From Actinokineospora sp. NBRC 105648 (lineage in GTDB: Bacteria > Actinomycetota > Actinomycetes > Mycobacteriales > Pseudonocardiaceae): a stretch of 64,000 nt of DNA. The stretch lies in assembly GCF_030269645.1 (NCBI RefSeq), contig NZ_BSTR01000015.1, positions 1-64,000 of the forward strand. The letters run 5' to 3'. Of this stretch, positions 6,818-37,010 are shown piece by piece (the stretch's first letter is position 1; each line of letters opens with the position of its first letter). The notes under the pieces are model-generated. The model was given only the letters and a program-made list of their open reading frames with translations. It was not told where the DNA came from and searched no databases. A program made the translations under genes and the position numbers.

Positions 6818-6959
6818 GCTCGATGGGGTGGAGTGGCTTTGTTTGGGGAGAAAAGAGGCGCTAGCCTGGTCCCGGCGTGGGTGATCCCTTCCCCACCCGC
6901 TTCACCCCGGCGCCTCTTTTCTCAGGGGCCCCAAACAAAGCCGCTCCACCCCATCGAGC
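6818..6959 (+). repeat. palindromic structured element, copy H
   Basis: This is the most diverged copy. The 5' arm GCTCGATGGGGTGGAGTGGC continues with TTTGTTTGGGG. The 3' arm is GGGGCCCCAAACAAAGCC followed by GCTCCACCCCATCGAGC, so outer pairing is nearly complete despite arm sequences unlike the other copies. The inner stem is AAAAGAGGCGC/GCGCCTCTTTT. The apical GTGGG/CCCAC hairpin encloses GATCCCTTC. It lies 73 bp beyond the pntB stop. The flank after it (AGCAAGCACCG) resembles the flank of copy I. Confidence 0.85.
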
Positions 6960-7032
6960 ACACCACCGAAGCAAGCACCGGGCCGAACACCCACCAAAGC
7001 AAGCACCGACGTGAAGCCCAGGCAAGCAGCGC

Positions 7033-8421
7033 TCAGAGCGCCTTGAGCTCCTCAGTCACCTCGGACACCGACGCCTTCGCGTCCCCGAACAGCATCGTCG
7101 TCTTCGGGTCGAAGTACAGCGCGTTGTCCACCCCCGCGAAGCCCGTCGCCATCCCGCGCTTGAGGACGATCACCGAGCGGCTCTCGTCGACGTTGAGGAT
7201 CGGCATGCCGTAGATCGGGGAGTCGGTGTCGGTGCGGGCGGCCGGGTTGGTGACGTCGTTGGCGCCGATCACCATGGCCACGTCGGTGCGGCTGAACTCG
7301 CGGTTGATGTCCTCCATCTCCTTGAGCCGCTCGTAGGGCACGTCGGCCTCGGCCAGCAGGACGTTCATGTGCCCGGGCATCCGGCCCGCGACCGGGTGGA
7401 TGGCGTAGTACACCGACACCCCGCGCGACTCCAGCAGGTCGGCCATCTCGCGGACCGCGTGCTGGGCCTGGGCGACCGCCATGCCGTAGCCGGGGACGAT
7501 GATCACCTGGTTGGCGAAGGCCATCTGGATCGCGGCGTCCGAGGCGCTGGTGCGGCGGACGGTCTGGTCGCCGGAGGCGATCGCGCCGGTGCCGCCGCCA
7601 CCGCCGAAGCCGCCCGCGACGATGGCCGGGATGGAGCGGTTCATCGCCTTGGCCATCAGGTTGGTCAGGATCGTGCCGGACGCGCCGACGATCATGCCCG
7701 CCACGATCAGCGCGGTGTTGTCCAGCGCCAGGCCCATGGCCGCGGCGCTCAGCCCGGTGAGCGCGTTGAGCAGGGAGATCACCACCGGCATGTCGGCACC
7801 GCCGATGGGCAGCACCACCATCACGCCCAGCACGGCCGAGGCGACCAGCAGTCCGATGATCAGCAGTTGCCCGGAGCCGCCCGCGATGGTGGCGGCGGCG
7901 CAGGCCAGGGCAGCGAGCAGCAGCACGAGGTTGAGCGGTTGTTGCAGCTTGCCGATGCCGACCGGGCGGCCGGTGATCAGCTCCTGCAGCTTGCCGTAGG
8001 CGACCAGCGAGCCCCAGAACGAGATCGAGCCGACGATCGCGGAGAACAGGCTCGCGATCGCGACGTGCTCGGGCTCGTTGGCGAACCCGAGGCTCTGCCG
8101 GAACTCCACCCAGGCGATCAGCGCGACCGCGCCGCCGCCGACACCGTTGAACAGGGCGACCATCTGCGGCATCGCGGTCATCTTGACCTGCTTGGCCGAC
8201 GGCACGCCGACGGCGGTCCCGATGGCGACACCGAGCAGGATCAGCCACCAGTTGCCCATGCCCGGGGTCAGCAGCGTGGCGATCACGGCCACCCCCATGC
8301 CCGCCGCGGCGATCCAGTTGCCGCGCACGGCCGTGCGGGGGCCGGTGAGGCCCATCAGGCCGTAGATGAACAGGGCGAAGGCGACGATGTAGAGCAGCTG
8401 GATCGCGACGTCGCGGGTCAT
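7033..8421 (-). CDS. pntB: NAD(P) transhydrogenase subunit beta
   Basis: This 462-aa membrane protein is the beta subunit of proton-translocating transhydrogenase, which moves hydride between NADH and NADP coupled to the proton gradient. The N-terminal ~260 residues form the multi-helix channel. The C-terminal domain III binds NADP(H), with VIIVPGYGMAVAQAQHAV and HPVAGRMPGHMNVLLAEA as its signature. Its start overlaps the pntA2 stop by 4 bp (ATGA), showing tight coupling. Full family length. Confidence 0.97.
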   Translation of the reverse strand: MTRDVAIQLLYIVAFALFIYGLMGLTGPRTAVRGNWIAAAGMGVAVIATLLTPGMGNWWLILLGVAIGTAVGVPSAKQVKMTAMPQMVALFNGVGGGAVALIAWVEFRQSLGFANEPEHVAIASLFSAIVGSISFWGSLVAYGKLQELITGRPVGIGKLQQPLNLVLLLAALACAAATIAGGSGQLLIIGLLVASAVLGVMVVLPIGGADMPVVISLLNALTGLSAAAMGLALDNTALIVAGMIVGASGTILTNLMAKAMNRSIPAIVAGGFGGGGGTGAIASGDQTVRRTSASDAAIQMAFANQVIIVPGYGMAVAQAQHAVREMADLLESRGVSVYYAIHPVAGRMPGHMNVLLAEADVPYERLKEMEDINREFSRTDVAMVIGANDVTNPAARTDTDSPIYGMPILNVDESRSVIVLKRGMATGFAGVDNALYFDPKTTMLFGDAKASVSEVTEELKAL

Positions 8422-8723
8422 CGCCGGTCCCCGTCCCGGGTCCGGTTCGGACTGTTCTTGAACATGCCCAGCATCCGGTCGGTCACCAGGAAGCCACCGA
8501 TGACGTTGATCGTGCCGAACGCGATCGCGATCACCAGCAGGATCTTGTCCAGCACCGACTCCGCGCCCAGGCCGAGCACGATGAGACCGCCGAGCAGCAC
8601 GATGCCGTGGATGGCGTTGGTCCCCGACATCAGCGGGGTGTGCAACGTGTTGGGCACCTTGGAGATCACCGCGAAGCCGACGAAGCCCGCCAGCACCAGC
8701 ACCGCCAGGTTCTGCACCAGCAT
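8418..8723 (-). CDS. pntA2: NAD(P) transhydrogenase subunit alpha, part 2 (membrane)
   Basis: This 101-aa protein has three or four transmembrane helices and the conserved KVPNTLHTPLMSGTNAIHGI motif of the alpha-subunit membrane domain. In many actinobacteria and alphaproteobacteria the alpha subunit is split into a soluble and a membrane part, as here. ATG 8723 directly follows the TAG of pntA1, with GGAGGG overlapping the end of pntA1. The C-terminal tail is charged. Confidence 0.96.
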   Translation of the reverse strand: MLVQNLAVLVLAGFVGFAVISKVPNTLHTPLMSGTNAIHGIVLLGGLIVLGLGAESVLDKILLVIAIAFGTINVIGGFLVTDRMLGMFKNSPNRTRDGDRR

Positions 8724-9812
8724 CTAGCCCTCCTCCCCGCTCACGCGGGCACCGGCGACGACCTCGTCGGTGAAGTCGATGGCGAGCGCGCCGTCGGTGT
8801 CGACGAGCAGTTCGAGCAGCGCTTGGACGTTGCGGGCGTAGAGCTCACTGGCGTGCTCGGGCATTCCCGCGGGCAGGTTCAGCGGGGCCGCGATGGTGAC
8901 CCCGCGGGTCACGATCACCTCGCCGGGACGGGTGAGCTCGCAGTTGCCACCGGACTCCCCGGCCAGGTCGACCACCACACTGCCCGGCCGCATCCCCTCG
9001 ACGGCCTCGGTGCGCACCAACGTCGGCGCACGGCGCCCGGGCACCTGCGCGGTCGTGATCACGGCATCGAACCCGGTGATCGCCTTGCTCAGCTGGCGCT
9101 GCTGCTCCTCCCGCTCGGCATCGGTGAGCGCGCGGGCGTACCCGCCTTCACCGACCGCCTCGATACCGAGGTCCAGCCACTGCGCACCGACCGAACGGAC
9201 CTGGTCGGCGACCTCGGGTCGGACGTCGTAGCCGGTGGTGTGCGCCCCGAGCCTGCGAGCGGTGGCGAGCGCCTGCAGACCGGCGACACCCACCCCGAGC
9301 ACGAGAACCTTGGCGGGCGGCACCGTCCCGGCGGCGGTGGTCAGCATGGGGAAGAACCGTGTGAGCTGCTCAGCGGCCAGCATCGCGGCACGGTAGCCGG
9401 CGACATTGGCCTGAGAGGACAGTGCGTCCATCGACTGCGCCCGCGAGATGCGCGGTATCGACTCCATCGCGAACGCAGTGATACGACTGCGCTTGAGCGC
9501 CTCGACCCGACTCGGGTCGGACAACGGTGCCAGGAAACCGATCAGCACCGCCCCCGGCCGGAGCAGCGCGATCTCCTCGTCGGTCGGCGGCGCCACCTTG
9601 ACCACGATGTCAGCGGCCCAGGGATCACCGAGCGTGGCTCCAGAATGGACATAGGCGTCATCCGGGATCAGCGCGTTCGCACCGGCTCCCGGCTCGACGA
9701 CAACGGAGAGGTTCCGGGCGCGAAGCCGCTCGACCACCTTGGGCACGAGCGCGACCCGCCGCTCGCCCTCGATGGTCTCCCTCGGGACGCCCACGACTGT
9801 GTTGGCGGTCAC
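8724..9812 (-). CDS. pntA1: NAD(P) transhydrogenase subunit alpha, part 1 (soluble)
   Basis: This 362-aa soluble subunit binds NAD(H). It shows the alanine dehydrogenase/PNT N-terminal signature GVPRETIEGERRVALVP and the Rossmann motif LVLGVGVAGLQALATARRLGA. GTG 9812 is chosen over an upstream ATG (9842) because family conservation begins just after it. TACAACTGTACTGTG spans the start and may hold a promoter for a leaderless message. It is first gene of the pntA1-pntA2-pntB operon, which supplies NADPH. Confidence 0.95.
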   Translation of the reverse strand: MTANTVVGVPRETIEGERRVALVPKVVERLRARNLSVVVEPGAGANALIPDDAYVHSGATLGDPWAADIVVKVAPPTDEEIALLRPGAVLIGFLAPLSDPSRVEALKRSRITAFAMESIPRISRAQSMDALSSQANVAGYRAAMLAAEQLTRFFPMLTTAAGTVPPAKVLVLGVGVAGLQALATARRLGAHTTGYDVRPEVADQVRSVGAQWLDLGIEAVGEGGYARALTDAEREEQQRQLSKAITGFDAVITTAQVPGRRAPTLVRTEAVEGMRPGSVVVDLAGESGGNCELTRPGEVIVTRGVTIAAPLNLPAGMPEHASELYARNVQALLELLVDTDGALAIDFTDEVVAGARVSGEEG

Positions 9813-10144
9813 AGTACAGTTGTACCATTTACTGGGGGCCAACGCAGAGCATCACAGTTACCACCTGAGGCCTGTGCGGCTCGGGGCGCAGGCCAGGCAC
9901 ATGGACCGCACGTGGATCTGCCCGGTCGGCCCGGGTCAGCCCAAGCCCCAGCCCCAAGCCCTCCCGGCTCGGCCCACCCTCGCCTCGCCTCGCCCACCCT
10001 CGCCTCGGCTCGGCTCGGCCCACCCCACCCCACATCAGCCCGTCAACTCGCGTGGCCCAAAGTCTCACTCGTGCCCTCTGCTTCGCCCTTTCTTTTCATC
10101 CCTAAATCCCAAGCCCTACGGAACGCAACACCCGCTACGCCAGT
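9813..10144. repeat. left flank of the B/C double element, low-complexity inverted-repeat arm
   Basis: After the pntA1 promoter there is a GC-skewed low-complexity stretch (about 9950-10040: repeats of CTCGCCTCGGCTCGGCCCACC type). It is followed by a TTTCATCCCTAA-containing segment. The stretch 10111-10134 is repeated exactly in inverse at 10517-10540 (24 bp). Looser inverted similarity extends outward to the low-complexity stretches on both sides (about 9950-10040 versus 10600-10700). No gene is seen. Confidence 0.65.
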
Positions 10145-10284
10145 GCTCGATTCAGTGGACTCGCTTCGTGTGGGGGGAGAGTACCGCTAAACTGGCCGGT
10201 GGTGGGAAATGCCCTTCACCCGCCCTTTTTTCACCACCGCGGTGCTCTAGGGGCCCCGCACGAAGTGAGTTCACTGAATCGAGC
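10145..10284 (+). repeat. palindromic structured element, copy B
   Basis: The outer arms are GCTCGATTCAGTGGACTCGC and, as reverse complement of the 3' arm, GCTCGATTCAGTGAACTCAC. Both carry TTCAGTG where copies A and F have CTAGTG, so the change is matched on both sides. The inner arm ends in ACCGC and the 3' side has GCGGTGCTCTAGGGGCCCC. CTAAACTGGCC and AAATGCCCTTC are the conserved unpaired parts. It is paired with copy C. Confidence 0.88.
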
Positions 10285-10365
10285 CCGCTCTTACTCGGGT
10301 ACACACGGCGTTGCTCGCCTCATCGACTGGGCGTAGCTCATACAGGTTGCCCGACTAAGACGCAG

Positions 10366-10506
10366 GCTCGATCTGGCGAACTCCCTTTGCGCGGGGCCCC
10401 TAGAGCACCGCTGTGGGGAAAAAGCGTGGGGAGAAGGGCATCCCCACCACCAGGTCAAGGTTAGCGGCACTCCTCCCCCACACAAAGGGAGTCCGCCAGA
10501 TCGAGC
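10366..10506 (-). repeat. palindromic structured element, copy C
   Basis: This minus-strand copy is 81 bp from copy B and inverted to it. The arms (GCTCGATCTGGCGGACTCCC and the matching GGGAGTTCGCCAGATCGAGC) carry their own complementary set of substitutions. The apex pairs GTGGGG with CCCCAC around ATGCCCTTC. The spacer between B and C is itself semi-palindromic (CTTACTCGGG against CCCGACTAAG). Confidence 0.88.
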
Positions 10507-10710
10507 ACATCCGTACCGGGTGTTGCGTTCCGTAGGGCTTGAGAATTAGGGATGAAGAGAAAGGACAAGCATAAGGCAAGAGCAAGGCTTTGAGGGTGGC
10601 GAATTGGCGGGCCGGAGACGGAATTGGCGGGCCGGGGCGAAAGTGGGCCGAGTGGGTCGTGCAGGGTGGGCCGAGACGGGGTGGGCTGAGGCGGGGCGAG
10701 AATGGGGTGG
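10507..10710. repeat. right flank of the B/C double element
   Basis: This is the inverted counterpart of the left flank. It begins with the 24-bp exact inverse copy at 10517-10540, then an inverse of the TTTCATCCCTAA segment, then GGCGGGCCGG repeats and a low-complexity GGGTGGGCCGAG stretch before the TetR gene stop. No gene is seen. Confidence 0.6.
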
Positions 10711-11376
10711 TTATCTGGGGTGCCAGTGGGCCATACCCAGGGCGATCATTCTCAGTTGGCGTTCTGCCACGCCTATCACCTGTGCCAGGTCGTCCGGGTG
10801 ATCACCCACGTCCAGCAGTGCCATGACTATCGACAGCATGGCGCCGACCATCAGGTCCGCTGCCATGCGCAGGTCGTCGGAGGACCAGGTCGCCATGCCC
10901 GGGAAGCGGCCCAGGTCTGTGGCGAGTTCGCTGCCCAGTAGTCGTAGTTCCGCGGCTATGGCGCGTCGGACTTCGGCTGCGCCGCCGTAGCGTTCGCGGA
11001 CCAGGAAGCGGAAGTGGGGTTCGTGTTTGCGGACCTGGGCGACCAGGGTGGCTACCGAGCCCTTGATGGCGTCGTCGGCCGGCTTCTGTCGGGCGTCGCG
11101 GAGCATGGTGCGGAGGGTCCGCATGCTCTCTTCGGCGAGTGCCACGCCCAGTTCGTCCATTGAGGCGAAGTGGCGGTAGAAGGCTGTCGGGACGATGCCC
11201 GCCTCGCGGGTGACCTCGCGCAGGCTCAGGCCGGCCAGGCTGCTGTCTGCGAGCAGGCGCAGGGCCGCGTCCAGGAGTGACTGCCTGGTGCGCCGCTTGC
11301 GCTCCTGTCTGGACTCCACCGCGCCGGTCACGGGGGCGAGGGTACTGGGCCTGCGCGGGCCCGCCGTGGTCACCAC
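10711..11376 (-). CDS. TetR family regulator, DesT/FabR-like
   Basis: This encodes about 221 aa. An N-terminal basic stretch RQERKRRTRQSLLDAALRLL precedes the helix-turn-helix (LSLREVTREAGIVPTAFYRHF, with the typical YRHF recognition end). The C-terminal ligand domain contains FRFLVRERYGG. The recognition-helix sequence and the divergent desaturase operon fit the DesT/FabR group that senses acyl-CoA saturation (inference). The start is taken at a GTGGTG pair at 11376; a downstream GTG is possible. It is divergent from the ferredoxin reductase gene, sharing the 11437-11454 palindrome, so autoregulation and operon control are likely. Confidence 0.85.
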   Translation of the reverse strand: MVTTAGPRRPSTLAPVTGAVESRQERKRRTRQSLLDAALRLLADSSLAGLSLREVTREAGIVPTAFYRHFASMDELGVALAEESMRTLRTMLRDARQKPADDAIKGSVATLVAQVRKHEPHFRFLVRERYGGAAEVRRAIAAELRLLGSELATDLGRFPGMATWSSDDLRMAADLMVGAMLSIVMALLDVGDHPDDLAQVIGVAERQLRMIALGMAHWHPR

Positions 11377-11436
11377 TGTTCGACACCTCACAGTCCCGTC
11401 GAGTTGACAGCGGGGTCGATCCGCGCTGTCCTTTTC

Positions 11437-11454
11437 AGTGTACGCACGTTCACT
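11437..11454. promoter_or_regulatory. candidate DesT-like operator
   Basis: AGTGTACGCACGTTCACT is an 18-bp palindrome with a single mismatched pair, placed between the divergent TetR gene and the desaturase operon, just upstream of the GGAGGTGG site. It closely resembles, from memory, the operator of Pseudomonas DesT, an AGTGAAC-type palindrome in front of a desaturase operon. Confidence 0.75.
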
Positions 11455-11471
11455 CAACATCGGAGGTGGCG

Positions 11472-12563
11472 GTGACCGCACAGCTGGAGCGCAAGCCGGG
11501 GTTTTCCGTGTTGCGGCTGCTTGAGGCCCTGGCCACGCCGCACGGGGTGGATCGGTACCTGGAGCTGGTGCATCCGATGCTCACCATCCGGGACCTCCGT
11601 GGTGAGGTGACGCGTGTACACCGAAGCACGTCCGACACGGTCACCCTCACGGTCCGCCCGACGCGGCGGTGGCGGGGGTTCAGCGCTGGGCAGTTCGTGC
11701 GGGTCGGGGTGGACATCGACGGGGTCCGGCGGACCCGGTGCTACTCCCCCGCCACCTCGCAGCACCGCGCAGGCGAGTTCGAGCTGACCATCAAGGCGCA
11801 CGCCGAGGGACTGGTCTCGCGGTGGCTGCACAGCAACGCCGAGCCGGGGCTGGTGTTGCACCTGTCGCAGGCCGAGGGCACCTTCACGCTGCCCGACGCC
11901 CGCCCGGACAAGGTGCTGCTGATCAGCGGTGGCAGCGGCATCACCCCGGTGCTGGCCATGCTGCGGACGCTGGCCGACGAGGACCACACCGGCGAGGTCA
12001 CCTTCCTGCACTACGCCTACACCGAGGCCGACGTCCCACACCGCGACGAGCTGCGCGCGCTCGCCGAGCGGGCGAACGTCAACCTGGTCCTCGCCTACAC
12101 CCACGCCGACGGCGGCGACCTGCGTGGCTTCTTCGACGAGACCCACCTGCGCGCGGCCGCCCCGTGGCACGCCGAGGCGCGGACATACCTCTGCGGTCCG
12201 CCCGGCCTGATGTCGGGCGTGCGCGACGTCTTCACCGGCCTCGGTCTCGCCGACCGGCTGCACACCGAGGAGTTCGCGCCCGCGCCGATCACCGTCGACG
12301 CCGCCGACGCGACCGGTGAGGTCACCTTCGCCCGCAGCGACCGGGCCGCCGCCAACTCCGGGCGAACGCTGCTGGAGCAGGCCGAGGCGGCGGGCCTCAA
12401 ACCCGAGCACGGCTGCCGGATGGGGATCTGCTTCTCCTGCAACCGGGTCAAGACCGCGGGCTGCACGCGCGACGTGCGCAACGGCGAGCTCTCCACCGAC
12501 CCGGACGAAGAGATCCAGCTGTGCGTGTCCGTGCCCGTCGGCGACGTGTCCATCGACCTCTGA
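11472..12563 (+). CDS. ferredoxin reductase with C-terminal 2Fe-2S domain, desaturase partner
   Basis: This 363-aa protein has an FAD-binding barrel (RCYSPATSQH), a NAD(P) domain (LLISGGSGITPVLAMLRTL, YLCGPPGLM) and a C-terminal plant-type ferredoxin domain. The cluster cysteines are in CRMGICFSCNRVKTAGC and LCVSVPVG. It matches the layout of M. tuberculosis Rv3230c, which passes electrons to the acyl desaturase DesA3. GTG 11472 follows GGAGGTGGC. It is the first gene of an operon with the desaturase 16 bp downstream and is probably controlled by the divergent TetR regulator. Confidence 0.93.
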   Translation: MTAQLERKPGFSVLRLLEALATPHGVDRYLELVHPMLTIRDLRGEVTRVHRSTSDTVTLTVRPTRRWRGFSAGQFVRVGVDIDGVRRTRCYSPATSQHRAGEFELTIKAHAEGLVSRWLHSNAEPGLVLHLSQAEGTFTLPDARPDKVLLISGGSGITPVLAMLRTLADEDHTGEVTFLHYAYTEADVPHRDELRALAERANVNLVLAYTHADGGDLRGFFDETHLRAAAPWHAEARTYLCGPPGLMSGVRDVFTGLGLADRLHTEEFAPAPITVDAADATGEVTFARSDRAAANSGRTLLEQAEAAGLKPEHGCRMGICFSCNRVKTAGCTRDVRNGELSTDPDEEIQLCVSVPVGDVSIDL

Positions 12564-12579
12564 GACCCCGGGAGAAACC

Positions 12580-13707: not shown

Positions 13708-13727
13708 GCAGTGAGACGGGGGTAGTC

Positions 13728-13940
13728 GTGGTCAGCGAGATCGAGAGCACCAAGGACACCATCCAAGAGGTCACCGAGTCCGCCGCCAACCACATCGGCC
13801 GGATCGCGCTGATCATCACCGGCGCGGTCCGCGACATCGCCCGCGAGGTGGGCGACTGGGCCACCGACGTGATCGAGATGCGCGAGGCCGCCGAACGGGC
13901 GTCGGTCGATCGACCGGTGGTCGTCGACGAAGACCGGTAA
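13728..13940 (+). CDS. small conserved hypothetical protein of the desaturase operon
   Basis: This is a 70-aa protein with an amphipathic N-terminal helix (TKDTIQEVTESAANHIGRIALIITGAVRDIAREVGDW, quoted here in parts: ESAANHIGRIALIITGAVRD) and an acidic tail. It starts at GTG 13728, 20 bp after the desaturase stop, behind a GGGGG-rich site, so it is probably the last gene of the operon. A terminator-like stem follows at 13958. The function is unknown; the hydrophobic helix suggests membrane association. Confidence 0.65.
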   Translation: MVSEIESTKDTIQEVTESAANHIGRIALIITGAVRDIAREVGDWATDVIEMREAAERASVDRPVVVDEDR

Positions 13941-13957
13941 TAGCGCTGCGCACAGGG

Positions 13958-13983
13958 CTCCTCGACCCGATCGGGCCGAGGAG
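13958..13983 (+). terminator. stem-loop after the desaturase operon
   Basis: CTCCTCGACCCGA pairs with TCGGGCCGAGGAG (one mismatch) directly after the last gene of the operon. There is no T-tract, as is common in high-GC actinobacteria. Confidence 0.6.
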
Positions 13984-13984
13984 T

Positions 13985-14033
13985 CACTCTACTGTGGACT
14001 CGCCCAGCGGTGATCGTTCTGCGAGGCTCTGAC
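13985..14033 (+). promoter_or_regulatory. upstream module shared by two secreted-protein genes, copy 1
   Basis: CTACTGTGGACTCG is followed after a fixed interval by GCTCTGAC, then a short stem-loop and AGGAGC before the small secreted protein. The same elements at the same spacing precede the Asp-rich protein gene (14475-14523), suggesting a common promoter or regulator. Confidence 0.6.
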
Positions 14034-14075
14034 CGCCTGAACTCGTCAGGCGAGAAGAGGAGCAGGGAAATCCCA

Positions 14076-14285: not shown

Positions 14286-14291
14286 GCCCGC

Positions 14292-14326
14292 CCGTCGGGC
14301 CGGTGCTGACCGCATCGGCCCGACGG
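14292..14326 (+). terminator. stem-loop terminator candidate
   Basis: CCGTCGGGCC (14292-14301) pairs perfectly with GGCCCGACGG (14317-14326) just after the stop of the small secreted peptide gene. There is no T-tract. Confidence 0.6.
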
Positions 14327-14474
14327 ATGTCACCGGCCCCACGGAAGAGCGTCAGCCGATCGTGGGCGCGCCGGTCGGAATTGATCACCATGCGAAGTCG
14401 GATTAGTTCCTTCGAAGGAGTGGGTTTCCCAGCGCTAGGCCGTTCGGCGCGCGGAAAATGATCACGAAAGTGGC

Positions 14475-14523: not shown

Positions 14524-14561
14524 TGTCCACTTCAGTCAGTCCAGCTAGGAGCGATCCACAC

Positions 14562-15086
14562 ATGCGCAAAGTCGCACTGCGCCTCGGAGTCATGGCCACC
14601 GCCACCGCGCTCGTCCTCGGCTTCACGGCCACGAACGCCTCCGCCGAGACCGCGGCCACTGCTGACATCCCGGTGACGGCCGACGTCATCGCCCAGATCG
14701 CCGCCGATCTCCACCTCGACCTCGACGACGTCTCCGACATCATCGACGACATCCTCGACGAGCTGGACGACGCGGACATCGACCTCGACGCCGACATCGA
14801 CCTCGACCTGCTGGTCGACCTGGTCGTCGACGCCTCGATCGACCTGGACATCGACCTCGACGTCGCGATCGACCTGGTGATCGACGCGCTGATCGACCTC
14901 GATCTCGACATCGACGGCCTGCTGGACCTCGACGGCAACATCAACATCGCCCTGCTGGTCGACCTGGGCCACCTGCTCGACATCGACATCAACATCGGCG
15001 GCCTGGTCGACCTGGGCAACGACGATGACGACGACGATGACGACTCGCCGCTGCTGAGCATCGGCGGCATCCACATCGGCCGCTAG
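14562..15086 (+). CDS. secreted Asp/Leu/Ile-rich low-complexity protein
   Basis: This is a 174-aa precursor with a signal peptide (MRKVALRLGVMATATALVLG, cleavage after NASA). The mature part is built almost only of D, L, I, V and A in alternating IDLDIDLD and LVDLVVDA patterns, with a run of eight Asp near the C-terminus and SIGGIHIGR as the end. More than 40 Asp residues are present, against very few basic residues. Alternating acidic and hydrophobic residues could form beta-sheet or helix stacks and bind divalent cations (inference). I do not recognise a family. AGGAG precedes the ATG, and a strong terminator follows at 15095. Confidence 0.8.
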   Translation: MRKVALRLGVMATATALVLGFTATNASAETAATADIPVTADVIAQIAADLHLDLDDVSDIIDDILDELDDADIDLDADIDLDLLVDLVVDASIDLDIDLDVAIDLVIDALIDLDLDIDGLLDLDGNINIALLVDLGHLLDIDINIGGLVDLGNDDDDDDDDSPLLSIGGIHIGR

Positions 15087-15094
15087 CCGACCGT

Positions 15095-27470: not shown

Positions 27471-27568
27471 CCTGCTTCAACTTTGGCGCTTGGCGCGCCG
27501 GAACCGCGCCAGGCAGCCATTGTGCACGAATCCCGCATACCGCCCAGGCCGCGCCAATCGGCCCGTCT

Positions 27569-27708
27569 GCTCGATTGGGTGGACTGTCCTTGTGTGGGGG
27601 AGGGCGACCGCCTAAGCTGCCCGGCGCGTGGGTGGATCCCTTCCCCACCCGCCCTCCCACCGGCGGTCGCCCAGGGGCCCCGCACAAAGACAGTCCACCC
27701 AATCGAGC
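27569..27708 (+). repeat. palindromic structured element, copy I
   Basis: This single copy lies between cutC and the OsmC gene. The outer arm GCTCGATTGGGTGGACTGTC continues with CTTGTGTGGGG. The 3' arm is GCACAAAGACAGTCC followed by ACCCAATCGAGC. The inner stem is GGGCGACCGCC/GGCGGTCGCCC, and the apex GTGGG/CCCAC encloses TGGATCCCTTC. All stem changes relative to other copies are compensated. The conserved GGGGCCCC lies in the 3' arm. Confidence 0.9.
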
Positions 27709-27801
27709 ACCACCACCACAGCAAGCCCCGACGACACACGCCCAAACAAGCCCAGGGCAGCGGCTGCCCGCGCCGGTCCCTCCGCCTGGGATGATCCGGG
27801 T

Positions 27802-29884: not shown

Positions 29885-32571
29885 GCCAGGATCTGCCCCA
29901 GCTGCGCCCGCGCGGTCACACCGAGCTTCGGGAACGCCTGGTAGAGGTGGAAGCTGACGGTGCGGTGCGAGAGGAACATCCGCTCGCCGATCTCGCGGTT
30001 GGTCAGGCCGTCGGCGGCCAACCGGACGATCTGCCGCTGCTGGGGTGTGAGCACGTCGAGCAGGTCGGCGCCGCCCGGGGCGACGGCCACGCCGGACGCG
30101 CGCAGCTCGGTCCGCGCGCGGTCGGCCCACGGTCGGGCGCCCAGTCGCTCGAACACCGGCAGGGCCGCGGCGAGCGCGATCCGGGCCTCGGCGATCCGCC
30201 GGTTGCGGCGCAGCCACTCGCCGCTGTCGAGCTGGGCGAGGGCGCGCTCGAACGGCCAGCGCTCCCCCTCGGGATCGGCCAGCGCGGCGGCGAAGTGCGG
30301 TTCGGGGTCGTCGGCGAGCTGGGCGCCTGCCCGGTGCAGGATCAGGTCGAGCCGGGTGGAGGCGGCACCGCTGAGGCGCTCGCGGGCGAGCTTGAGGATG
30401 CCGGTCACCTCGCTGACCTGGTCGGTGCGGGCGGCGGCCGCGGCCAGGTCGGCGATGGCGTAGTAGGAGAAGTGGTAGTGCACCGGGTGGCCGTCGGCGT
30501 CGAAGAGGGCCCGCAGGGTGGTGTAGGCGAGTTCGTGGTCGCCGTCAGCCACCGCGGCCATGCCCGCGGCGTAGTGGGCGCGGACCGTCACGGCCAGGGC
30601 GTCGGCGGGTTCGGTGATCGCCAGCAGCTCGGCCACCTCACCCGCGCCGGACCCGGACAGCGCGGACAGCGTCTTCATCAGCGCCCGGGCGCGCACGGTG
30701 GCCAGCGTCGGCCCAGCGGTGCCCACCCGGCGGGCCAAGCCCTCGACCGCGCGCCGGGCGTCCGCCCAGCGGCCCGCGGCGAACCAGGCCCAGCCCAGGT
30801 CGGCCGCGGCCATGCCCAGCTGCACGACCTCGGCGTCCGGGCGGACCGGGTCGGCCAGCTCGACGAGCAGCCGCACCGCGGTCTCGGTCTCGTCGAGGAG
30901 CATCGCCAGCGCGCCGAGCAGGTTGAGCAGCACCGGGTCGCGCGGCAGCCCGTCGATCCCCGCGAGCCCGGCGCGGCCGTGCGCGGCGTTGCCGAACGGG
31001 TCGACCACGGCCGCGATCCAGGACTGGAACGGCACCGCGGCCGGACTGTCCACATGGCACCGTTCGTAGACTCGCCGGACGGCGGCCAGGTGGTCCGGGT
31101 CGCCGGTGTAGTGGGCGATGTTGGCCGCGATGGTCAGCGTGTGCAGGGTGACTTCCTGATCGGGCGGCAGGCTCTCGGTGACCGGCAGCACGAGAGTGAT
31201 GGCGTGCCGCAGCCGCAGGGTCACCGAGGCGACAGTCCCCGCGAGCACCGACAGCCACGCGCTGGCGGCGGGATCGGCGGTGCGCGACCTCGCCCTGGCC
31301 GCCAGTTCGGCCGCGCGGGCCAGATCGCCCGCCACGATGGCCGTGACCGCGCTCTTGGCCAGCCGGTTGCCGTGGTCGACCGGGTCCGGGCTGAGGTAGG
31401 CGGCCCGCTCGAACGCGGCCATCGACTCCACCGTGGCGCCGCGGCCGCGGGCGCGGTTCGCGGTCTCCTCCAGTGCCGCGGCAACGGTTTCGTCGGGTGT
31501 GACGGTGGCCGCGGAGAGGTGCCAGGCGCGCCGGTCCGGGTCGTGCACCCGGGCCAGGGCGAGGTGGGCGGCGCGGCGTTCGTCGGGCGTGGCGGCGTAG
31601 TAGACCGCCGAGCGCACCAGGGGGTGGCGGAACTCCAACTCGCCGTGGCCGAGCCGCAGCAGGCCCGCGCGCTCGGCGGGCAGCCACACGTCCAGCCCCG
31701 CGCCGGGGAGCACGCCGAGCACGATGGCCAGGTCGGTGGTGTCGGCGGCCGCGGCGACGAGCAGCGCCCGACGGGTATCGGCGGGCAACGCGGGCAGATC
31801 CGCGGCGAAGGTGCGCTCGATGCGTTCGGTGACCGGCAGTTCCTCGTGTTCCCAGCCCGCGCGCCCGTCGATGGCCGCGGCCTTCGCCAACTCCGCCAGT
31901 GCCAACGGGTTTCCCTCGGCGAGAGTCAGGATTCGCTTGCGCAGCAAGCCCTTCGGCGGCACAGGCTGCGCGTCGAGCACCGCCTCGGCGGCCTCGGGCG
32001 CCAGCGGCGGCACGGTCAGCACCGGGACGTCGAGGTCGAACCCGGCGGGCGGGCAGTCACCACGGGCCAGGACCAGCAGGGAGATCGGTTCACCCTCGAG
32101 CCTGCGTGCCAGGAAGGCCAGCACGTCCACGGTCGCCCGGTCGACCCACTGCGCGTCGTCGACCACGAGCAGCAGCGGGCCCGCGTCGGCCAGGGTGGAC
32201 AGCAGGGTGAGGACGGCCAGGCTCAGCGCCATCCCGTCGCCGGGCTCGGCGGACCCGTCGTACCCGAAGGCGGCCCGCAGCACCTCGCGCTGCCGCTCGG
32301 GCAGGTCGTCGACAGCGTCGAGCACCGGGCGCAGCAGCTGGTGCAGACCCGCGAACGCCAGCTCGGTCTCAGCCGCGCTGCCGCGCACGCGCAGCACCCG
32401 AACCCCCCGCTCCCCCGCCTCGGCGACGGCCGCCTCGAGCAGGCTCGTCTTGCCGATCCCGGCACCGCCGACCACGACCAGGACCTGCGCACCCCCGCTG
32501 ACCGGCGGCAACAGCGCGCGAACGCGGGCCGACTCCGCGGATCGTCCGATGCTGGGGCCGGGGGAGGTCAC
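29860..32571 (-). CDS. large LuxR family ATPase regulator (LAL type)
   Basis: This 903-aa protein has an N-terminal AAA domain with Walker A VVVGGAGIGKTSLLEA and Walker B LLLVVDDAQWVD. A long helical, TPR-like middle region follows. The C-terminal LuxR helix-turn-helix is LTPQQRQIVRLAADGLTNRE then RMFLSHRTVSFHLYQAF. LAL regulators bind a ligand and ATP to activate transcription, often of secondary metabolism. It is convergent with the CobW gene with a 25-bp overlap, and divergent from a methyltransferase gene 90 bp away. No biosynthetic cluster adjoins it. Confidence 0.93.
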   Translation of the reverse strand: MTSPGPSIGRSAESARVRALLPPVSGGAQVLVVVGGAGIGKTSLLEAAVAEAGERGVRVLRVRGSAAETELAFAGLHQLLRPVLDAVDDLPERQREVLRAAFGYDGSAEPGDGMALSLAVLTLLSTLADAGPLLLVVDDAQWVDRATVDVLAFLARRLEGEPISLLVLARGDCPPAGFDLDVPVLTVPPLAPEAAEAVLDAQPVPPKGLLRKRILTLAEGNPLALAELAKAAAIDGRAGWEHEELPVTERIERTFAADLPALPADTRRALLVAAAADTTDLAIVLGVLPGAGLDVWLPAERAGLLRLGHGELEFRHPLVRSAVYYAATPDERRAAHLALARVHDPDRRAWHLSAATVTPDETVAAALEETANRARGRGATVESMAAFERAAYLSPDPVDHGNRLAKSAVTAIVAGDLARAAELAARARSRTADPAASAWLSVLAGTVASVTLRLRHAITLVLPVTESLPPDQEVTLHTLTIAANIAHYTGDPDHLAAVRRVYERCHVDSPAAVPFQSWIAAVVDPFGNAAHGRAGLAGIDGLPRDPVLLNLLGALAMLLDETETAVRLLVELADPVRPDAEVVQLGMAAADLGWAWFAAGRWADARRAVEGLARRVGTAGPTLATVRARALMKTLSALSGSGAGEVAELLAITEPADALAVTVRAHYAAGMAAVADGDHELAYTTLRALFDADGHPVHYHFSYYAIADLAAAAARTDQVSEVTGILKLARERLSGAASTRLDLILHRAGAQLADDPEPHFAAALADPEGERWPFERALAQLDSGEWLRRNRRIAEARIALAAALPVFERLGARPWADRARTELRASGVAVAPGGADLLDVLTPQQRQIVRLAADGLTNREIGERMFLSHRTVSFHLYQAFPKLGVTARAQLGQILAQRASSTR

Positions 32572-32661
32572 GCCGGCAGCCTAGCCGGGGAGCGATCCCA
32601 GTCCGCCTGGCGAGAACGTGAACAAGATCCGCCCTCGCGGTGTCCGGGGTAGCGTGGCGGC

Positions 32662-33468
32662 ATGGACGCCAGGCAGGCCATCGCGGCGGTGTTCGACCAG
32701 ACCGCGGACACCTACGACGCGCTCGGCGTCGACTTCTTCGGGGTCTTCGCCCGCACCCTGCTCGACGACGTGGGCCCGATCGACGGCCTGCGTGTCCTGG
32801 ACGCAGGCTGCGGCCGCGGCGCAGTCCTCTTCCAGGCCGCGGAACGGGTCGGTCCACAGGGGTCGGTGGTGGGCATCGACCTGGCACCGCAGATGGTGAC
32901 CCGCACCGAGGCCGAGGCCACCGAGTGCGGGATAGAGAATGTCTCGGTCCTGGTGTCCGACGCACAGGAACCCACGGTGGCAGGCCCGTTCGACGTCGTC
33001 CTGTCCTCGTGCGTGATCTTCTTCCTGCCCAACCCAGCAGCAGCGTTGCGCGCATGGCACAGCCTGCTGACCCCGGACGGCATACTGGGCCTGACCACCT
33101 TCGGCGGCATAGACCCACGGTGGGCGCCGATCGACGAACTGTTCGCACCGTATGTGCCGGAACCGCTCGCGCAGTCGATCAAAGCCAGCCCCTTCAACAA
33201 CACCGACCACGTGAACACCCTGGTAGCCGACGCAGGTTTCGCCGACCCGACCTCGGTGACCCGCGAACACGACGTCCGATTCGACTCACCGCAACACTGG
33301 GTGGACTGGTCGTGGTCACACGGACAACGACTGTTCTGGGGCCTGGTCCCCGAGTCCGAACGCGACGCTGTCACAACGGGGATCCTGGACCACTTGCGCA
33401 CACTGTCCGAACCGGACGGTTCAGTGGTACTGCACCAGCCAGTCAGATACACAATCGCCTGGCACTGA
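32662..33468 (+). CDS. class I SAM-dependent methyltransferase
   Basis: This 268-aa methyltransferase is of the UbiE/Methyltransf_11 type with motif I LRVLDAGCGRGAVLFQAAE, post-I VVGIDLAPQMV and FDVVLSSCVIFFL. ATG 32662 has TAGCGT six bases upstream, so it is probably leaderless. The substrate is unknown. Codon use in its 3' half is slightly less GC-biased than its neighbours. It is followed by the D/E double element. Confidence 0.9.
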   Translation: MDARQAIAAVFDQTADTYDALGVDFFGVFARTLLDDVGPIDGLRVLDAGCGRGAVLFQAAERVGPQGSVVGIDLAPQMVTRTEAEATECGIENVSVLVSDAQEPTVAGPFDVVLSSCVIFFLPNPAAALRAWHSLLTPDGILGLTTFGGIDPRWAPIDELFAPYVPEPLAQSIKASPFNNTDHVNTLVADAGFADPTSVTREHDVRFDSPQHWVDWSWSHGQRLFWGLVPESERDAVTTGILDHLRTLSEPDGSVVLHQPVRYTIAWH

Positions 33469-33586
33469 CGGCACGAACACCAACTGCAGCAGAACCAGAG
33501 CCGCTGGCACACAACAAGATCCCGTCCCCACGCTGGTACCGCAGCGGATAGGCCGACCCAGCTGGAAAGTAAGTCCCGTTACGGAT

Positions 33587-33723
33587 GCTCGATCTGGTGG
33601 ACTCGCTTCGTGTGGGGGAGAGCACCGCTAAACTTGCCGTGGGTGGGGATGCCCTTACCTGCCCTTTTCTCTCCACCGCGGTGCTCTAGGGGCCCCACAC
33701 GAAGCGAGTTCACTAGATCGAGC
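33587..33723 (+). repeat. palindromic structured element, copy D
   Basis: The leader GGATAGGCCGACCCAGCTGG and GTTACGGAT precede the 5' arm GCTCGATCTGGTGGACTCGC. The inner arm is GAGAGCACCGC. TAAACTTGCC, GGGGATGCCCTTACC, the 3' inner arm GCGGTGCTCTAGGGGCCCC and the outer GAAGCGAGTTCACTAGATCG follow. It is nearly identical to copy F. It lies downstream of the methyltransferase gene and forms an inverted pair with copy E. Confidence 0.9.
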
Positions 33724-33818
33724 CCCTCATCTTTTCCTCGGGCAGCCCATGTCTACGAGCCACCCGTGGCGTCGACCCCAGGGCAGCACATCCCACGAGC
33801 TGCCCGAGTAAGAGCGGG

Positions 33819-33958
33819 GCTCGATTGGCCGGACTACCTTCGCGCGGGGCCCCTAGAGCACCGCGGTGGTGAAAAAAGGGCGGGTGAAGGGCATCCCCAC
33901 CACACGGCAAGTTTAGCGGCACTCCTCCCCCACACGAAGGCAGTCCACCCAATCGAGC
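33819..33958 (-). repeat. palindromic structured element, copy E
   Basis: This minus-strand copy has 5' arm GCTCGATTGGGTGGACTGCC and 3' arm complement GCTCGATTGGCCGGACTACC. The inner stem is less perfect (AGTGCCGC facing GCGGTGCT). The 95-bp spacer to copy D carries CTCGGGCAGC at one end and GCTGCCCGAG at the other. Beyond it the leader GTCCGTAGCGGGTGTTGCGT appears in inverse. Confidence 0.88.
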
Positions 33959-34062
33959 ATGTCCGTAGCGGGTGTTGCGTACCAGCGGGCTCGGCTTTAA
34001 AGAGTGAAAGACTTCGAGATCTGAGAGAAGAAAGCAAGCCCCTCCCCAGAAGAAAGGAAATG

Positions 34063-34110
34063 CCAAGCGGGGTGGTGGTGCACGTTGCCGTGCACCACCA
34101 CCCCGCTTGG
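34063..34110. terminator. strong bidirectional terminator of the chitinase gene
   Basis: A perfect 21-bp stem (34063-34083 with 34090-34110; inner part GGTGGTGGTGCAC) encloses GTTGCC. It lies 33 bp after the chitinase stop. On the minus strand it is followed by a pyrimidine-rich CATTTCCTTTCTTC tail. Confidence 0.92.
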
Positions 34111-34143
34111 GACCGTCCAGTAGAGAGGACTAGCCAATAGCTA

Positions 34144-36210
34144 CTAGCTGATGGTGAAGTCGTCCGCGTAGACGGCGCTCTGGCCGTACCAGCCGTGGAC
34201 GTAGAGCTTGACCGTGCCGTTGGACCCGGTGGTGAACGGGATGCTCAGCTGCTTCCAGTCGCTGGTCGAGGTCCAAGCACTGGCGGTGGCGCCGCCGGTG
34301 ACGCCGACGTAGGCGTAGTTGCCGCGCACCCACGCCTTGAGCGTGTAGGCCTTGTTCGGCAGCAGGGTCACGCTCTGCGAGACCTCACCGGTGCCCGAGG
34401 CCGACGGGGTGACCGAGAGGGCCTTGGCGCCGGAGTGCACCGGGGTGCTCACCACGGACGAGCCGGACGCCGCCGTCCACGGGGAGATGGCGCCGGACTC
34501 GAAGCCGCCGTTGACGACCGCGCCGCTGGGCTGGGTGCCGTTGACGGTGATCGCGTAGGTCGCGGTGTGGGTGGCGTTCGGGCCGGTGCCGGTCACCGTG
34601 AAGGTGTAGGTGCCGGGGGTGGCCGTGGCCGACGCGGCCAGCGTCAGGGTGGAGGTGCCGCCCGCGGTGACGGTGGTCGGGCTGAGGGAAGCGGTGACGC
34701 CGCCCTGGGCCGGGCCCGAGGTGAGCGCGACGGACTGCGCGCTGCCCGAGGTGACGGCGGTGTTCACGGTGGCCGTGACGCTCGCGCCCACGTTGACCGA
34801 CCCGGAGGTCGGGTTGACCGCGAGCGAGAAGTCGTTGGCCGGGGTGGTGCCGTTGACCTTCACCGAGACGGTCGCGGTGTGCGTGCCGGACGCGCCGGTG
34901 CCGGTGACCGTGAAGGTGTAGGTGCCCGAAGCCGCCCCCGCCGCGGCGGCGAAGGTGAGGGTGGACGTGCCACCCGCGGTGACGCTGGTCGGGTTCAGCG
35001 TGGCGGTGACGCCACCCTGGGCCGGGCCGGCGGTCAGCGCGACGGACTGCGCGCTACCCGAGGTGACCGCGGTGCTGACCGTGGCGGTCGCGCTCGCGCC
35101 CGCGTTCACCGTGACCGAGGCCGGGCTGACCGCGACGGAGAAGTCGTTGGTCGGGACCGACCCGCTCGTGAACGGGGCGAACTTCTTGCTGAAGTAGTAG
35201 AGGTCCTGCGCGATGCCGGAGCAGTTGTCAGCGGCGGCGCCACCGGGGCAGCTGCCGTTGTCGCGCTGCAGGGCCCAGAAGGACAGCGTGTTGATGCCCT
35301 TCGCCAGCGCCCAGTTGTAGACGGTGGTCGCGTCCGCGGTCGTGAAGGTCTCGGCCGGGCCGAAGTCGTCGACACCGATCATCTCGGTGACGCCGACCAT
35401 GCCCCACAGCTGCGCCTGGGTCTTGCTCGGGTACAGCTGCGCCAGCGTGTTCACCAGACCCTGCGAGGCGGTCTCGGTGTCCTTGGCCATGTTGTGCGTG
35501 CCGGCGTTGTCGTAGTAGTCGAACGTCATGATGTTGACGACGTCGACCTGCGCGTTGTTCTGCACGGCGTTGCGCAGCAGCGCGACACCGTTCTGCGCCA
35601 GCCCGCTCGTGGTGGTGGGCAGGGTGTAGGAGAACTGGATCGGGCGCCCGTTGGCCGCCGCCCAGTCCTTGACGATCTTGATCGCCTTGTTCCGGCGGTC
35701 GACGCCCGCGGTGTTGTCCAGCGAGTCGATCTCGATGTCGAGGTCGATCCGGCTGATGTCGTAGGTGGTGATCAGCCGCTGGTACTCACCGGCGATCTTG
35801 TTGACGTCGGTGCAGCTGTCGGCCAGCTCGGTACCGGTGGTGTCGGCGGTGTAGCCGCCGAACGACGGGATGACGTCACCGCCGTTGGCCTTGATCGTGT
35901 TGATGGCCGCGCCGAAGGTCGACGAGGAGATCGGCATCGAGGTGTCGCCGTTCCACAGCGCCGTGCAGGAGCCGGGACTGGCCGTCTGCAGGAAGGCCAT
36001 GGTCAGGTACTTGGCCCCGGACGCGGCCGAGAGGGTGGCCGGGTTCTCCCCGGTCCAGGCCTCGAAGTACGGCGCGAAGACCCGCGCGGGCATCGGCTTG
36101 GCCGCGACCGTCGCGGCCTCGGCCTGGTTCGTGGCGATGGTGACACCTGTGACGGCGGCGGCCGTGGCCACCAGGGTCAGCACAGACATCAAGGGTTTGG
36201 ACAACCGCAT
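34144..36210 (-). CDS. secreted GH18 chitinase with two Ig-like repeats and a C-terminal carbohydrate-binding domain
   Basis: This is a 688-aa precursor. A signal peptide (residues 1 to about 33, ending NQAEAA) is followed by a GH18 catalytic domain (about 40-375). The family motif appears as IDLDIE, with Glu160 the expected proton donor. Two ~100-aa near-identical repeats (DFSxAVxPxS start, VALTxGPAQGGVTA core) act as linkers. A C-terminal GGFESGAISPW domain of CBM4/9/16 jelly-roll look ends the protein. It hydrolyses chitin outside the cell. GGAGCG precedes ATG 36210, and a DasR-type site lies 72 bp upstream. Confidence 0.93.
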   Translation of the reverse strand: MRLSKPLMSVLTLVATAAAVTGVTIATNQAEAATVAAKPMPARVFAPYFEAWTGENPATLSAASGAKYLTMAFLQTASPGSCTALWNGDTSMPISSSTFGAAINTIKANGGDVIPSFGGYTADTTGTELADSCTDVNKIAGEYQRLITTYDISRIDLDIEIDSLDNTAGVDRRNKAIKIVKDWAAANGRPIQFSYTLPTTTSGLAQNGVALLRNAVQNNAQVDVVNIMTFDYYDNAGTHNMAKDTETASQGLVNTLAQLYPSKTQAQLWGMVGVTEMIGVDDFGPAETFTTADATTVYNWALAKGINTLSFWALQRDNGSCPGGAAADNCSGIAQDLYYFSKKFAPFTSGSVPTNDFSVAVSPASVTVNAGASATATVSTAVTSGSAQSVALTAGPAQGGVTATLNPTSVTAGGTSTLTFAAAAGAASGTYTFTVTGTGASGTHTATVSVKVNGTTPANDFSLAVNPTSGSVNVGASVTATVNTAVTSGSAQSVALTSGPAQGGVTASLSPTTVTAGGTSTLTLAASATATPGTYTFTVTGTGPNATHTATYAITVNGTQPSGAVVNGGFESGAISPWTAASGSSVVSTPVHSGAKALSVTPSASGTGEVSQSVTLLPNKAYTLKAWVRGNYAYVGVTGGATASAWTSTSDWKQLSIPFTTGSNGTVKLYVHGWYGQSAVYADDFTIS

Positions 36211-36281
36211 GTCGCGCTCCAGTGCAGGGATTGGCCACGACCGGGAGGAACAGCCCCGGGCGCGGTGGTGCATCCCAAAAT

Positions 36282-36293
36282 TGGACTAGACCA
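36282..36293. promoter_or_regulatory. DasR-type operator upstream of chitinase
   Basis: TGGACTAGACCA, extended to TTGGACTAGACCAA, is a palindrome with one mismatch to the DasR consensus, 72 bp upstream of the chitinase start. Chitinase genes are classical DasR targets in Streptomyces. Confidence 0.85.
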
Positions 36294-36507
36294 AAGCCGA
36301 TGTCAAGACCGGTGCGACAGGCGGTCACCAACCAGGCACGAACAGTGCAAATCCGGGCTAACGGGATGATTACCCCAAATCGACCAGCCAGGGCACCCGG
36401 CCAGGACAGCGCCACACCACCAGATCCAAGCCACGAAGAGACCTCGACACCTGGCCCCCGCGACCGAAACACCTAACCGCAGCATGACCCGACTCCACTG
36501 GTATTCG

Positions 36508-36631
36508 ACAGAATCCCGAACCCGCTGGAACCAAACAAAATCCCGACCCCGCTCGACCGCAACAGGATCCCGTTCCCACCCAACCGCAGCGGATAGGCCA
36601 ACCCGGCTGGAAAGTAAGTCCCGTTACGGAT
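36508..36631 (+). repeat. ~28-bp tandem repeats and conserved leader before element copy F
   Basis: Three to four diverged units with the pattern ATCCCGNNCCCGCTNGAACC (around 36511, 36539, 36567) run into CCGCAGCGGATAGGCC and the leader AAGTCCCGTTACGGAT. The same leader, with a shorter version of the repeat, precedes copy D. The reverse complement of 101-145 shows it for copy A too. Confidence 0.7.
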
Positions 36632-36770
36632 GCTCGATCTAGTGGACTCGCTTCGTGTGGGGGGAGAGCACCGCTAAACTTGCCGTGGGTGGGGATGCCC
36701 TTACCCTGCCCTTTTCTCTCCACCGCGGTGCTCTAGGGGCCCCGCACGAAGCGAGTTCACTAGATCGAGC
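36632..36770 (+). repeat. palindromic structured element, copy F (reference copy)
   Basis: Outer helix: GCTCGATCTAGTGGACTCGC plus TTCGTGTGGGG pairs with CCCCGCACGAAGCGAG plus TTCACTAGATCGAGC. Inner helix: GAGCACCGC with GCGGTGCTC. The conserved unpaired segments are TAAACTTGCC, the apical ATGCCCTT and the asymmetric TAGGGGCC bulge in the 3' arm. It lies between the divergent chitinase and AfsR-type genes. It carries no ORF or transposase end that I recognise. Confidence 0.92.
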
Positions 36771-36871
36771 CCCTCGTCTTTTCCTCGGGCAACCCCAGCG
36801 ACGAGCCACCATGCAGGTCGACCGCAGGTCGGCGTGCGGCACACCCCACGAGCTGCCCAAGTAAGAGCAGG

Positions 36872-37010
36872 GCTCGATTGGCTGGACTGCCTTCGCGCGG
36901 GGCCCCTAGGCGACCGCGTGGGGAAAAAGCGTGGGGAGAAGGGCATCCCCACCACAGGTCAAGTTTAGCGGTCGCCTCCCCCCACACGAAGGCAGTCCAC
37001 CCAATCGAGC
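36872..37010 (-). repeat. palindromic structured element, copy G
   Basis: This minus-strand copy is paired with F across a 101-bp spacer that ends GAGCTGCCCAAGTAAGAG. Arms: GCTCGATTGGGTGGACTGCC and 3' complement GCTCGATTGGCTGGACTGCC. The inner stem GGCGACCGC/GCGGTCGCC replaces the GAGCACCGC/GCGGTGCTC of copy F, a compensated change. The apex pairs GTGGGG/CCCCAC around ATGCCCTTC. Confidence 0.9.

Follow-up and report, generated by a model that had tools for sequence, protein, structure and literature searches.

A family of 145-base hairpins between the genes of an Actinokineospora species and its relatives, found beside a DUF222-HNH gene in other genera

Palindromes of the window and their distribution

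The stretch of DNA analysed here, referred to throughout as the window, consists of the first 64,000 nucleotides of contig NZ_BSTR01000015.1 of Actinokineospora sp. NBRC 105648, starting at base 1 of the contig, and carries several copies of a long palindrome of 142-148 bases with the ends TGCTCGAT...ATCGAGC. These copies belong to a family of 145-base hairpins, hundreds of which occupy intergenic DNA in this actinobacterium and in its relatives. An original prediction, made from the letters of the window, had counted nine copies between 6818 and 37010; eight full copies are found inside 6815-37013, and the ninth is a cut copy at the very start of the window. Six of the eight full copies form head-to-head (convergent) pairs (10142/10364, 33584/33817 and 36629/36870), with members 77-97 bases apart; the copies at 6815 and 27566 are single. 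The features are as follows.

1..104, minus strand: cut palindrome copy, truncated by the contig start (model positions 1-103)
6610..6830, no strand assigned: 61-base repeat units next to the 6815 copy, bearing TGCTCGAT-like element starts (repeat families D11 and D17)
6815..6962, plus strand: single palindrome copy, 3' of the pntB stop, with a GGGG outer helix and a AGAGGCGC inner helix
10087..10564, no strand assigned: entire composite of pair 1, inverted repeat I4, with complementary ends (84% over 107 nt)
10142..10287, plus strand: palindrome copy, left partner of head-to-head pair 1, with a TTCAGTG outer helix
10364..10509, minus strand: palindrome copy, right partner of pair 1
27566..27710, plus strand: single palindrome copy in the cutC/osmC interval
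33584..33726, plus strand: palindrome copy, left partner of pair 2, with a CTGGTG/CACTAG outer helix
33817..33961, minus strand: palindrome copy, right partner of pair 2
36600..37030, no strand assigned: entire composite of pair 3, found at 40 or more genome places including its own, 88-100% alike over nearly the full length
36629..36772, plus strand: palindrome copy, left partner of pair 3; outer helix 36632-36662 with 36740-36770, inner helix 36665-36674 with 36725-36734, unpaired TAAACTTGCCGT at 36675-36686 and unpaired AGGGG at 36735-36739
36870..37013, minus strand: palindrome copy, right partner of pair 3

The motif TAAACTTGNCC, with at most one mismatch, occurs seven times in the window versus 0.28 expected, six times inside copies and once (53402) outside; its exact form is present 73 times in the genome, the reversed pattern once. 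A covariance search of 859 kb of the same genome returned 31 full copies and one cut copy, with six convergent and two divergent pairs among neighbours less than 400 bp apart. Leaving out the window, which had been chosen for its copies, there are 23 copies in 795 kb, from which we estimate about 240-310 copies per genome. At least 150 of these are strong, as all of the best 150 of 2794 candidates that were scored had E <1e-31. Within the genus the family was recognized in 15 of 16 genomes with model R1 (the palindromes of relatives possibly being counted on both strands); the remaining genome, G006, gave no copy with either model R1 or R2. Among 200 genomes of the taxonomic family, 41 genomes from 11 of 46 genera match at 1e-6 when the best 15 candidates per genome are considered, and among 298 genomes of the order eight match at 1e-8 (best 10 candidates each), all of them from the same family as the window and none from outside it. 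When 150 candidates were scored in each of 20 unmatched genomes (G006 and 19 of other genera), none matched, so the model is not triggered by just any GC-rich palindrome. The paired composite has no DNA match among plasmids and phages.

The position of the copies relative to genes was determined with a purpose-built codon-usage gene caller for 223 distinct copies (229 rows), a non-random sample whose places had often been fetched as best scorers. None of the 223 overlaps a called gene. For the 205 copies with both neighbours available, the setting is convergent in 116 cases, tandem in 77 and divergent in 12; in the 859 kb, among intergenic regions of 100 bp or more, a copy occupies 10/46 convergent, 10/115 tandem and 1/80 divergent ones (Fisher p 0.0002, convergent versus divergent). 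Between tandem genes, 49 copies have the same strand as the genes and 28 the opposite one (p 0.022), or 40 versus 17 when counted by region (p 0.003). It can be seen that the copies avoid genes and promoters and favour the 3' ends of genes. There is no recurrent neighbour gene in the genus: among 367 proteins encoded near copies the largest cluster consists of 8 proteins from 7 loci.

At least 16 of the 149 contigs of the genome (C1, C7, C9, C13, C15, C16, C17, C35, C41, C46, C48, C55, C62, C64, C77 and C84 of G000) carry a copy whose start is no more than about 300 bases from the first base of the contig, and the window itself begins in one; the repeat therefore breaks the assembly.

Fold, covariation and strand of the hairpin

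The RNA folds of the eight full copies have energies of -91 to -108 kcal/mol and z-scores of -7.4 to -13.7, values not equalled by any of 200 shuffles. The fold plan consists of an outer helix of about 31 bp, an AGGGG bulge in the 3' arm, an inner helix of about 10 bp, an unpaired stretch in the 5' arm and an apical hairpin, often followed by a U run; it is recovered mostly unchanged, without any fitting, in the folds of single copies, a few of which deviate from it (for example L010 and one copy in L094). The original prediction had proposed such a shared plan with conserved loops. The plan is real, and the outer-helix variants are as they had been listed; TAAACTTG and the apical CCCTTC do not occur in every copy, those at 6815 and 27566 being different. 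Conservation of the loops is only partial, as the motif counts are incomplete: AGGGG(C/T)CCC in the 3' half is present in 58/65 copies of the genus and 6/10 copies of other genera, TA(A/G)NC(T/G) in 30/65 and 8/10, and a CYTTT run in 49/65 and 2/10, respectively.

Covariation was studied in an alignment of 67 copies (66 distinct), taken from the window and from 14 further genomes of the genus. Of 3180 cells, 97.5% are paired, versus 69.7% in shuffles, and both sides have changed at 43 of the 49 pairs. The covariation score is 0.734, as compared to 0.198 for shuffled alignments and 0.068-0.100 when the partners are slid; significance is overstated by the shuffle control where sequences are related, and the structure guided the fitting of the alignment, but the gap to the slid control is large. 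The covariation is overwhelming, and the compensated arm changes seen in the original prediction thus stand far above both controls. In Rfam, only two tRNAs were matched in the window, and the best hit of 36500-37150, with E 3.1, falls far below cut-off, so that the palindrome is without a match there. Together with the many more copies in relatives and with the strand bias described next, these results support the proposed selection on structure.

If mutation is strand-symmetric, G.T and A.C mismatches are expected to be equally frequent in the helices of a given strand. In the outer helix of 89 copies (one skipped) there are instead 127 G.U pairs versus 7 A.C, and in the three helices of 66 copies 160 versus 18. 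In both sets the orientation came from the covariance model, in which G.U pairs are rewarded. A check on orientation that is independent of G.U is offered by GGGGCCCC, carried by 77 of the 89 copies and always in their 3' half; 69 further distinct copies oriented by GGGGCCCC alone (from 78, of which 8 lack it and 1 was skipped) have 65 G.U versus 7 A.C. The large excess of G.U on one strand therefore supports the conservation of one folded single strand, either RNA or single-stranded DNA (ssDNA), rather than of a cruciform or duplex site.

The bulge is a mirror image of the purine arm in the outer helix, GGGG being accompanied by GGGG, and GGAG by GAGG in two other genera. Copies of other genera (L141, L142, L349, L351, L353, L383 and L384; alignment A6) have an outer helix ending in GGAG/CTCC rather than GGGG/CCCC, and a bulge AGAGG rather than AGGGG. 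This mirroring fits a purine triple strand, and the AGGGG bulge may be a triple-stranded recognition site; it may, however, reflect a single evolutionary event.

Turnover of the copies and a nuclease gene in other genera

The 34 copies of the CTAGT subfamily of the genome have arm identities of 0.99 and 0.96, as opposed to flank identities of 0.71 and 0.49; the corresponding values for the 32 copies of the TGGGT group are 0.90 and 0.85 for the arms, and 0.57 and 0.50 for the flanks. Near-identical copies occupy differing surroundings. Syntenic 400 kb stretches of two related species (G003 and G005), 89% alike, contain respectively 8 and 9 copies, and none of these 17 is at a matching place, as judged by comparing the gaps by hand with the copy lists, a comparison that is less clear for two copies at the edges of inversions (12747 in G003, 143795 in G005). 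The gaps around the copies often exceed the length of the element by several hundred bases and are filled with other small repeats; the copies thus sit within growing islands of repeats. In the window, the distance from pntB to the next gene is 536 bp, versus 49-61 bp in five relatives in which the site at 6815 is empty; the 61-base units at 6610..6830 are part of the roughly 490 additional bases. Mobility of the palindromes is thus well supported.

Other arrangements of repeats were observed around the copies. Loci L094 and L108 of G003 and its contig C1 at ~2764930-2765570 hold arrays of 3-5 hairpins spaced by about 240-325 bases; the array of L094 has three hairpins on one strand, followed by two on the other. 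The left flanks of many CTAG subfamily copies of the own genome (for example L026, L027 and L034) consist of arrays of ~30-45 base units such as CCGCAGCGGATAGGCCGACC and CCGCTGGTACGC, a second and shorter repeat family. A 1 kb intergenic insert of G005 (contig C5, ~63914-64914, L261-L262), missing from G003, contains three repeats of about 330 bases with TTATCCACATGTGGAT, exact in two of them and with a single change in the third, which we take to be DnaA-box-like; similar stretches, TTATCCACA/TTGTCCACA, are found near hairpin copies in G005.

Genes of the DUF222-HNH (13E12) kind occur in many actinobacteria; we know of no job assigned to them. The new observation of this study is that such a gene is associated with the palindromes in four other genera. 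In G157, a genome of another genus (g28), there are four back-to-back pairs of copies 1.0-2.1 kb apart, and the four dispersed units that they delimit, 1.3-2.4 kb with the palindromes included, are about 90% alike. The gene in the interval is a DUF222-HNH gene (PF02720 and PF01844); in the three that were scanned, DUF222 scored above cut-off each time (2e-20, 9e-18 and 4e-19). The fourth gene (L369) is broken and was matched in pieces by tblastn, and the third (L370) is duplicated and includes a stretch of undetermined bases. With the relatives found by tblastn in G152, G071, G137, G121 (g20), G022 (g8) and G049 (g35), the gene is next to a palindrome at 13 places in 7 genomes, a count that omits a weak fourteenth DUF222 match (L372). 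At 8 of the 13 places (g28 and g20) the gene is flanked by palindromes on either side; elsewhere the available stretch mostly ends too soon. All 21 neighbouring palindromes, at all 13 places, point their 5' end to the gene. Six of the places (L368-L371, L383 and L384) had been picked for their paired look; among places picked by the search itself (L134-L143 and L347-L367), a DUF222-HNH gene is nearby in 6 of 31. Neither PADLOC nor NCBIfam gave a match for the gene adjacent to the palindromes, and a match of its product to Pumilio homolog 1 in the PDB (E 0.0079) was taken as chance. As a candidate for a gene-bearing unit in the own genome, we considered a divergent pair about 1.1 kb apart (C26, L034) and rejected it, as the interval holds an isochorismatase gene and no DUF222.

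Two further features were noted in the window: a direct repeat of 300 bases, 81% alike, at 34534-35145 within a GH18 chitinase-like gene (34144-36273, minus strand), and a called gene at 14562-15086 which, read in frame, consists of aspartate- and leucine-rich repeats with a run of acidic residues at the end.

Origin of the palindromes and relation to known systems

The combination of palindromes and nuclease gene suggests a little-known kind of mobile DNA, and the likely parent of the window copies is the DUF222-HNH element of other genera. Our preferred reading, which we would as readily accept as reject, is that the copies of the window are gene-less derivatives of DUF222-HNH mobile elements specific to this family, spread by a nuclease acting on a folded strand. 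The palindromes would be end hairpins, the full element being one DUF222-HNH gene between two hairpins with their 5' ends to the gene, and the single hairpins and pairs of the own genus would spread without a gene, as miniature inverted-repeat transposable elements (MITEs) or REPINs do. The HNH protein would recognise one strand of the palindrome, folded and single-stranded, and cut or nick it there; repair would then copy the hairpin to or from another copy. Such cut-and-repair could homogenise the hairpins within a species while their flanks differ, leave no clear target duplication and keep compensated changes, with survivors mainly at the 3' ends of genes, away from promoters. The gene-less copies would be parasites of the gene-bearing ones, as REPINs are of RAYTs.

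Several observations weigh against this reading. No DUF222 match was found near copies of the own genus, either in the 859 kb of the own genome, in 800 kb of two relatives or in other loci of the genus (tblastn, looser on six stretches). In five other records, four actinobacterial plasmids and one phage scaffold, the DUF222-HNH genes lack flanking palindromes (0/5), although the finder used recovers the known palindromes at three control places; one of these records (L391) has a single unrelated palindrome 1.7 kb upstream, and the hairpins are therefore no general trait of DUF222-HNH genes. No target duplication could be recognized by eye at the G003/G005 sites inspected, and in six paired units the best shared words, of 5-7 bases, are unconvincing, arrays blurring the ends. 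The HNH domain of the G157 genes (0.003, 0.0004 and 1e-7) exceeds the Pfam cut-off in one of three, the first two falling 0.3-3.3 bits below; in g8 and g35 there is one palindrome beside one gene each, and the g8 match, at 26% identity, is a weak one. The gene might be no more than a passenger. Finally, RNA accounts no less well than ssDNA for the tolerance of G.U and for the excess of copies on the genes' strand between tandem genes. The analysis establishes the family itself, its covariation and strand bias, the turnover of copies and the linkage to the gene in a fixed orientation. Given that no DUF222 match lies near the copies of the own genus in the stretches searched, the five plasmid and phage records and the lack of a convincing target duplication, we only infer the role of DUF222-HNH as mobilising enzyme; an ssDNA rather than RNA substrate and a homing-type repair are inferred as well.

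All the evidence for mobility would hold without DUF222, and there is no linked gene in the own genus (at most the cluster of 8 of 367 proteins, at 7 loci), as expected if a palindrome of the REP or MITE type were moved in trans by another transposase, the DUF222-HNH units being a side branch in which hairpins captured a gene. We consider this explanation unlikely, though worth serious attention: the fixed orientation at 13/13 places and the four dispersed whole units of one genome argue for a functional link, and a RAYT-type Y1 transposase is absent from the own genome and present in only 2 of 16 genomes of the genus. A transcribed structured RNA, kept for its use to neighbouring genes as a 3'-end stabiliser, RNase III target or terminator, would account for the excess of G.U over A.C on one strand, for the partly conserved unpaired stretches and the U run after the apical hairpin, as well as for the preference for gene 3' ends and for the genes' strand in tandem settings (49 vs 28, p 0.022; 40 vs 17 regions, p 0.003). 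However, none of the 17 copies keeps its position from one related species to the other, so that no individual gene relies on its hairpin; in more than half of the settings, which are convergent, transcription of the second gene would yield the wrong strand, and the head-to-head pairs place both strands in one transcript; on balance this role is rather improbable.

An RNA-copied, SINE-like (short interspersed nuclear element) origin would agree with selection on a folded strand, with the high copy number and with three RVT_1 matches in the own genome, but RVT_1 is found in 3 of 16 genomes of the genus, the own included, as opposed to 15 of 16 for the element, and we judge a link to reverse transcriptase very improbable. 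To the possibility that the pairing is kept only by template switching (quasi-palindrome correction), or by use as a cruciform or protein site, with no selection on a single strand, we attach hardly any weight. It would likewise give paired changes in both arms, yet it predicts equal numbers of G.T and A.C, which the observed 160 vs 18 and 65 vs 7 contradict unless mutation is strongly strand-biased, and it leaves the spread, the asymmetric loops and the gene linkage unexplained.

Among known systems, the hairpins resemble REP/REPIN sequences (BIMEs), which are high-copy intergenic palindromes arranged in inverted pairs and forming species-specific families (PMC2817692, PMC3116915). The palindromes studied here are likewise high-copy, intergenic and in inverted pairs; their units are 142-148 nt, as opposed to some 20-40 nt with a GTAG-type head (REPs of ~21-37 nt with mostly GTAG or GTGG heads in the table of PMC2817692). 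A link to RAYTs was rejected: Y1_Tnp (PF01797) has no match in the own genome and occurs in 2/16 genomes of the genus, where the two 3.4 kb loci contain no element. YPAL/RU-2 of Yersinia is a repeat of ~168 bp, and ERIC/RU-1 measures 127 bp. According to PMC2229807, YPAL has empty and filled sites and makes target duplications of 3-26 bp, while NEMIS ends in TA, carries a terminal repeat of 24 bp and duplicates its target, and its RNA is proposed to be processed by RNase III. Going by these descriptions, the likeness to YPAL/ERIC lies in size, intergenic place and stem-loop folding, and that to NEMIS/Correia of Neisseria and RPE of Rickettsia in the size class and long stem-loops; YPAL/ERIC belong to a different phylum, and YPAL also differs in its target duplication, none having been recognized here; NEMIS differs in its terminal repeat, TA ends and duplication, not found here either.

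As short gene-less repeats with many copies at differing places the hairpins are also MITE-like, and as a candidate parent element there is a DUF222-HNH gene between two palindromes in two other genera and beside one in two more, with none seen in the stretches of the own genus that were searched. ssDNA hairpins are the substrates of IS200/IS605 elements and of integron attC recombination, and recombination of a folded strand would fit the strand bias; IS200/IS605 differs in that its Y1 transposase has no counterpart in the own genome. The gene-bearing units resemble mycobacterial REP13E12, compared by its description, in carrying PF02720 and PF01844. REP13E12, HNH endonuclease and DUF222 are named as one category in PMC10589994, and REP13E12 loci of M. 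tuberculosis appear in a preprint (PMC13061034) as gene-conversion hotspots without defined function, with which the proposed cut-and-repair agrees. In the openly licensed PMC literature we found no description of this palindrome family or of hairpins around DUF222-HNH genes.

Held more tentatively, and a little short of an even chance, is the broader possibility of a new class of bacterial mobile element, in which long structured hairpins enclose a DUF222-HNH gene, or no gene, the folded single strand is the target of the nuclease, spread proceeds by cut-and-repair, and the gene-less hairpins are its far more numerous parasites. Because the hairpin lies beside the DUF222-HNH gene in fixed orientation, it is a concrete candidate substrate, and the function of the gene becomes directly testable. 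The actinobacteria would thereby gain a REPIN-like system without a RAYT, and a structured repeat family missing from Rfam, one which breaks assemblies and sits at some rearrangement points.

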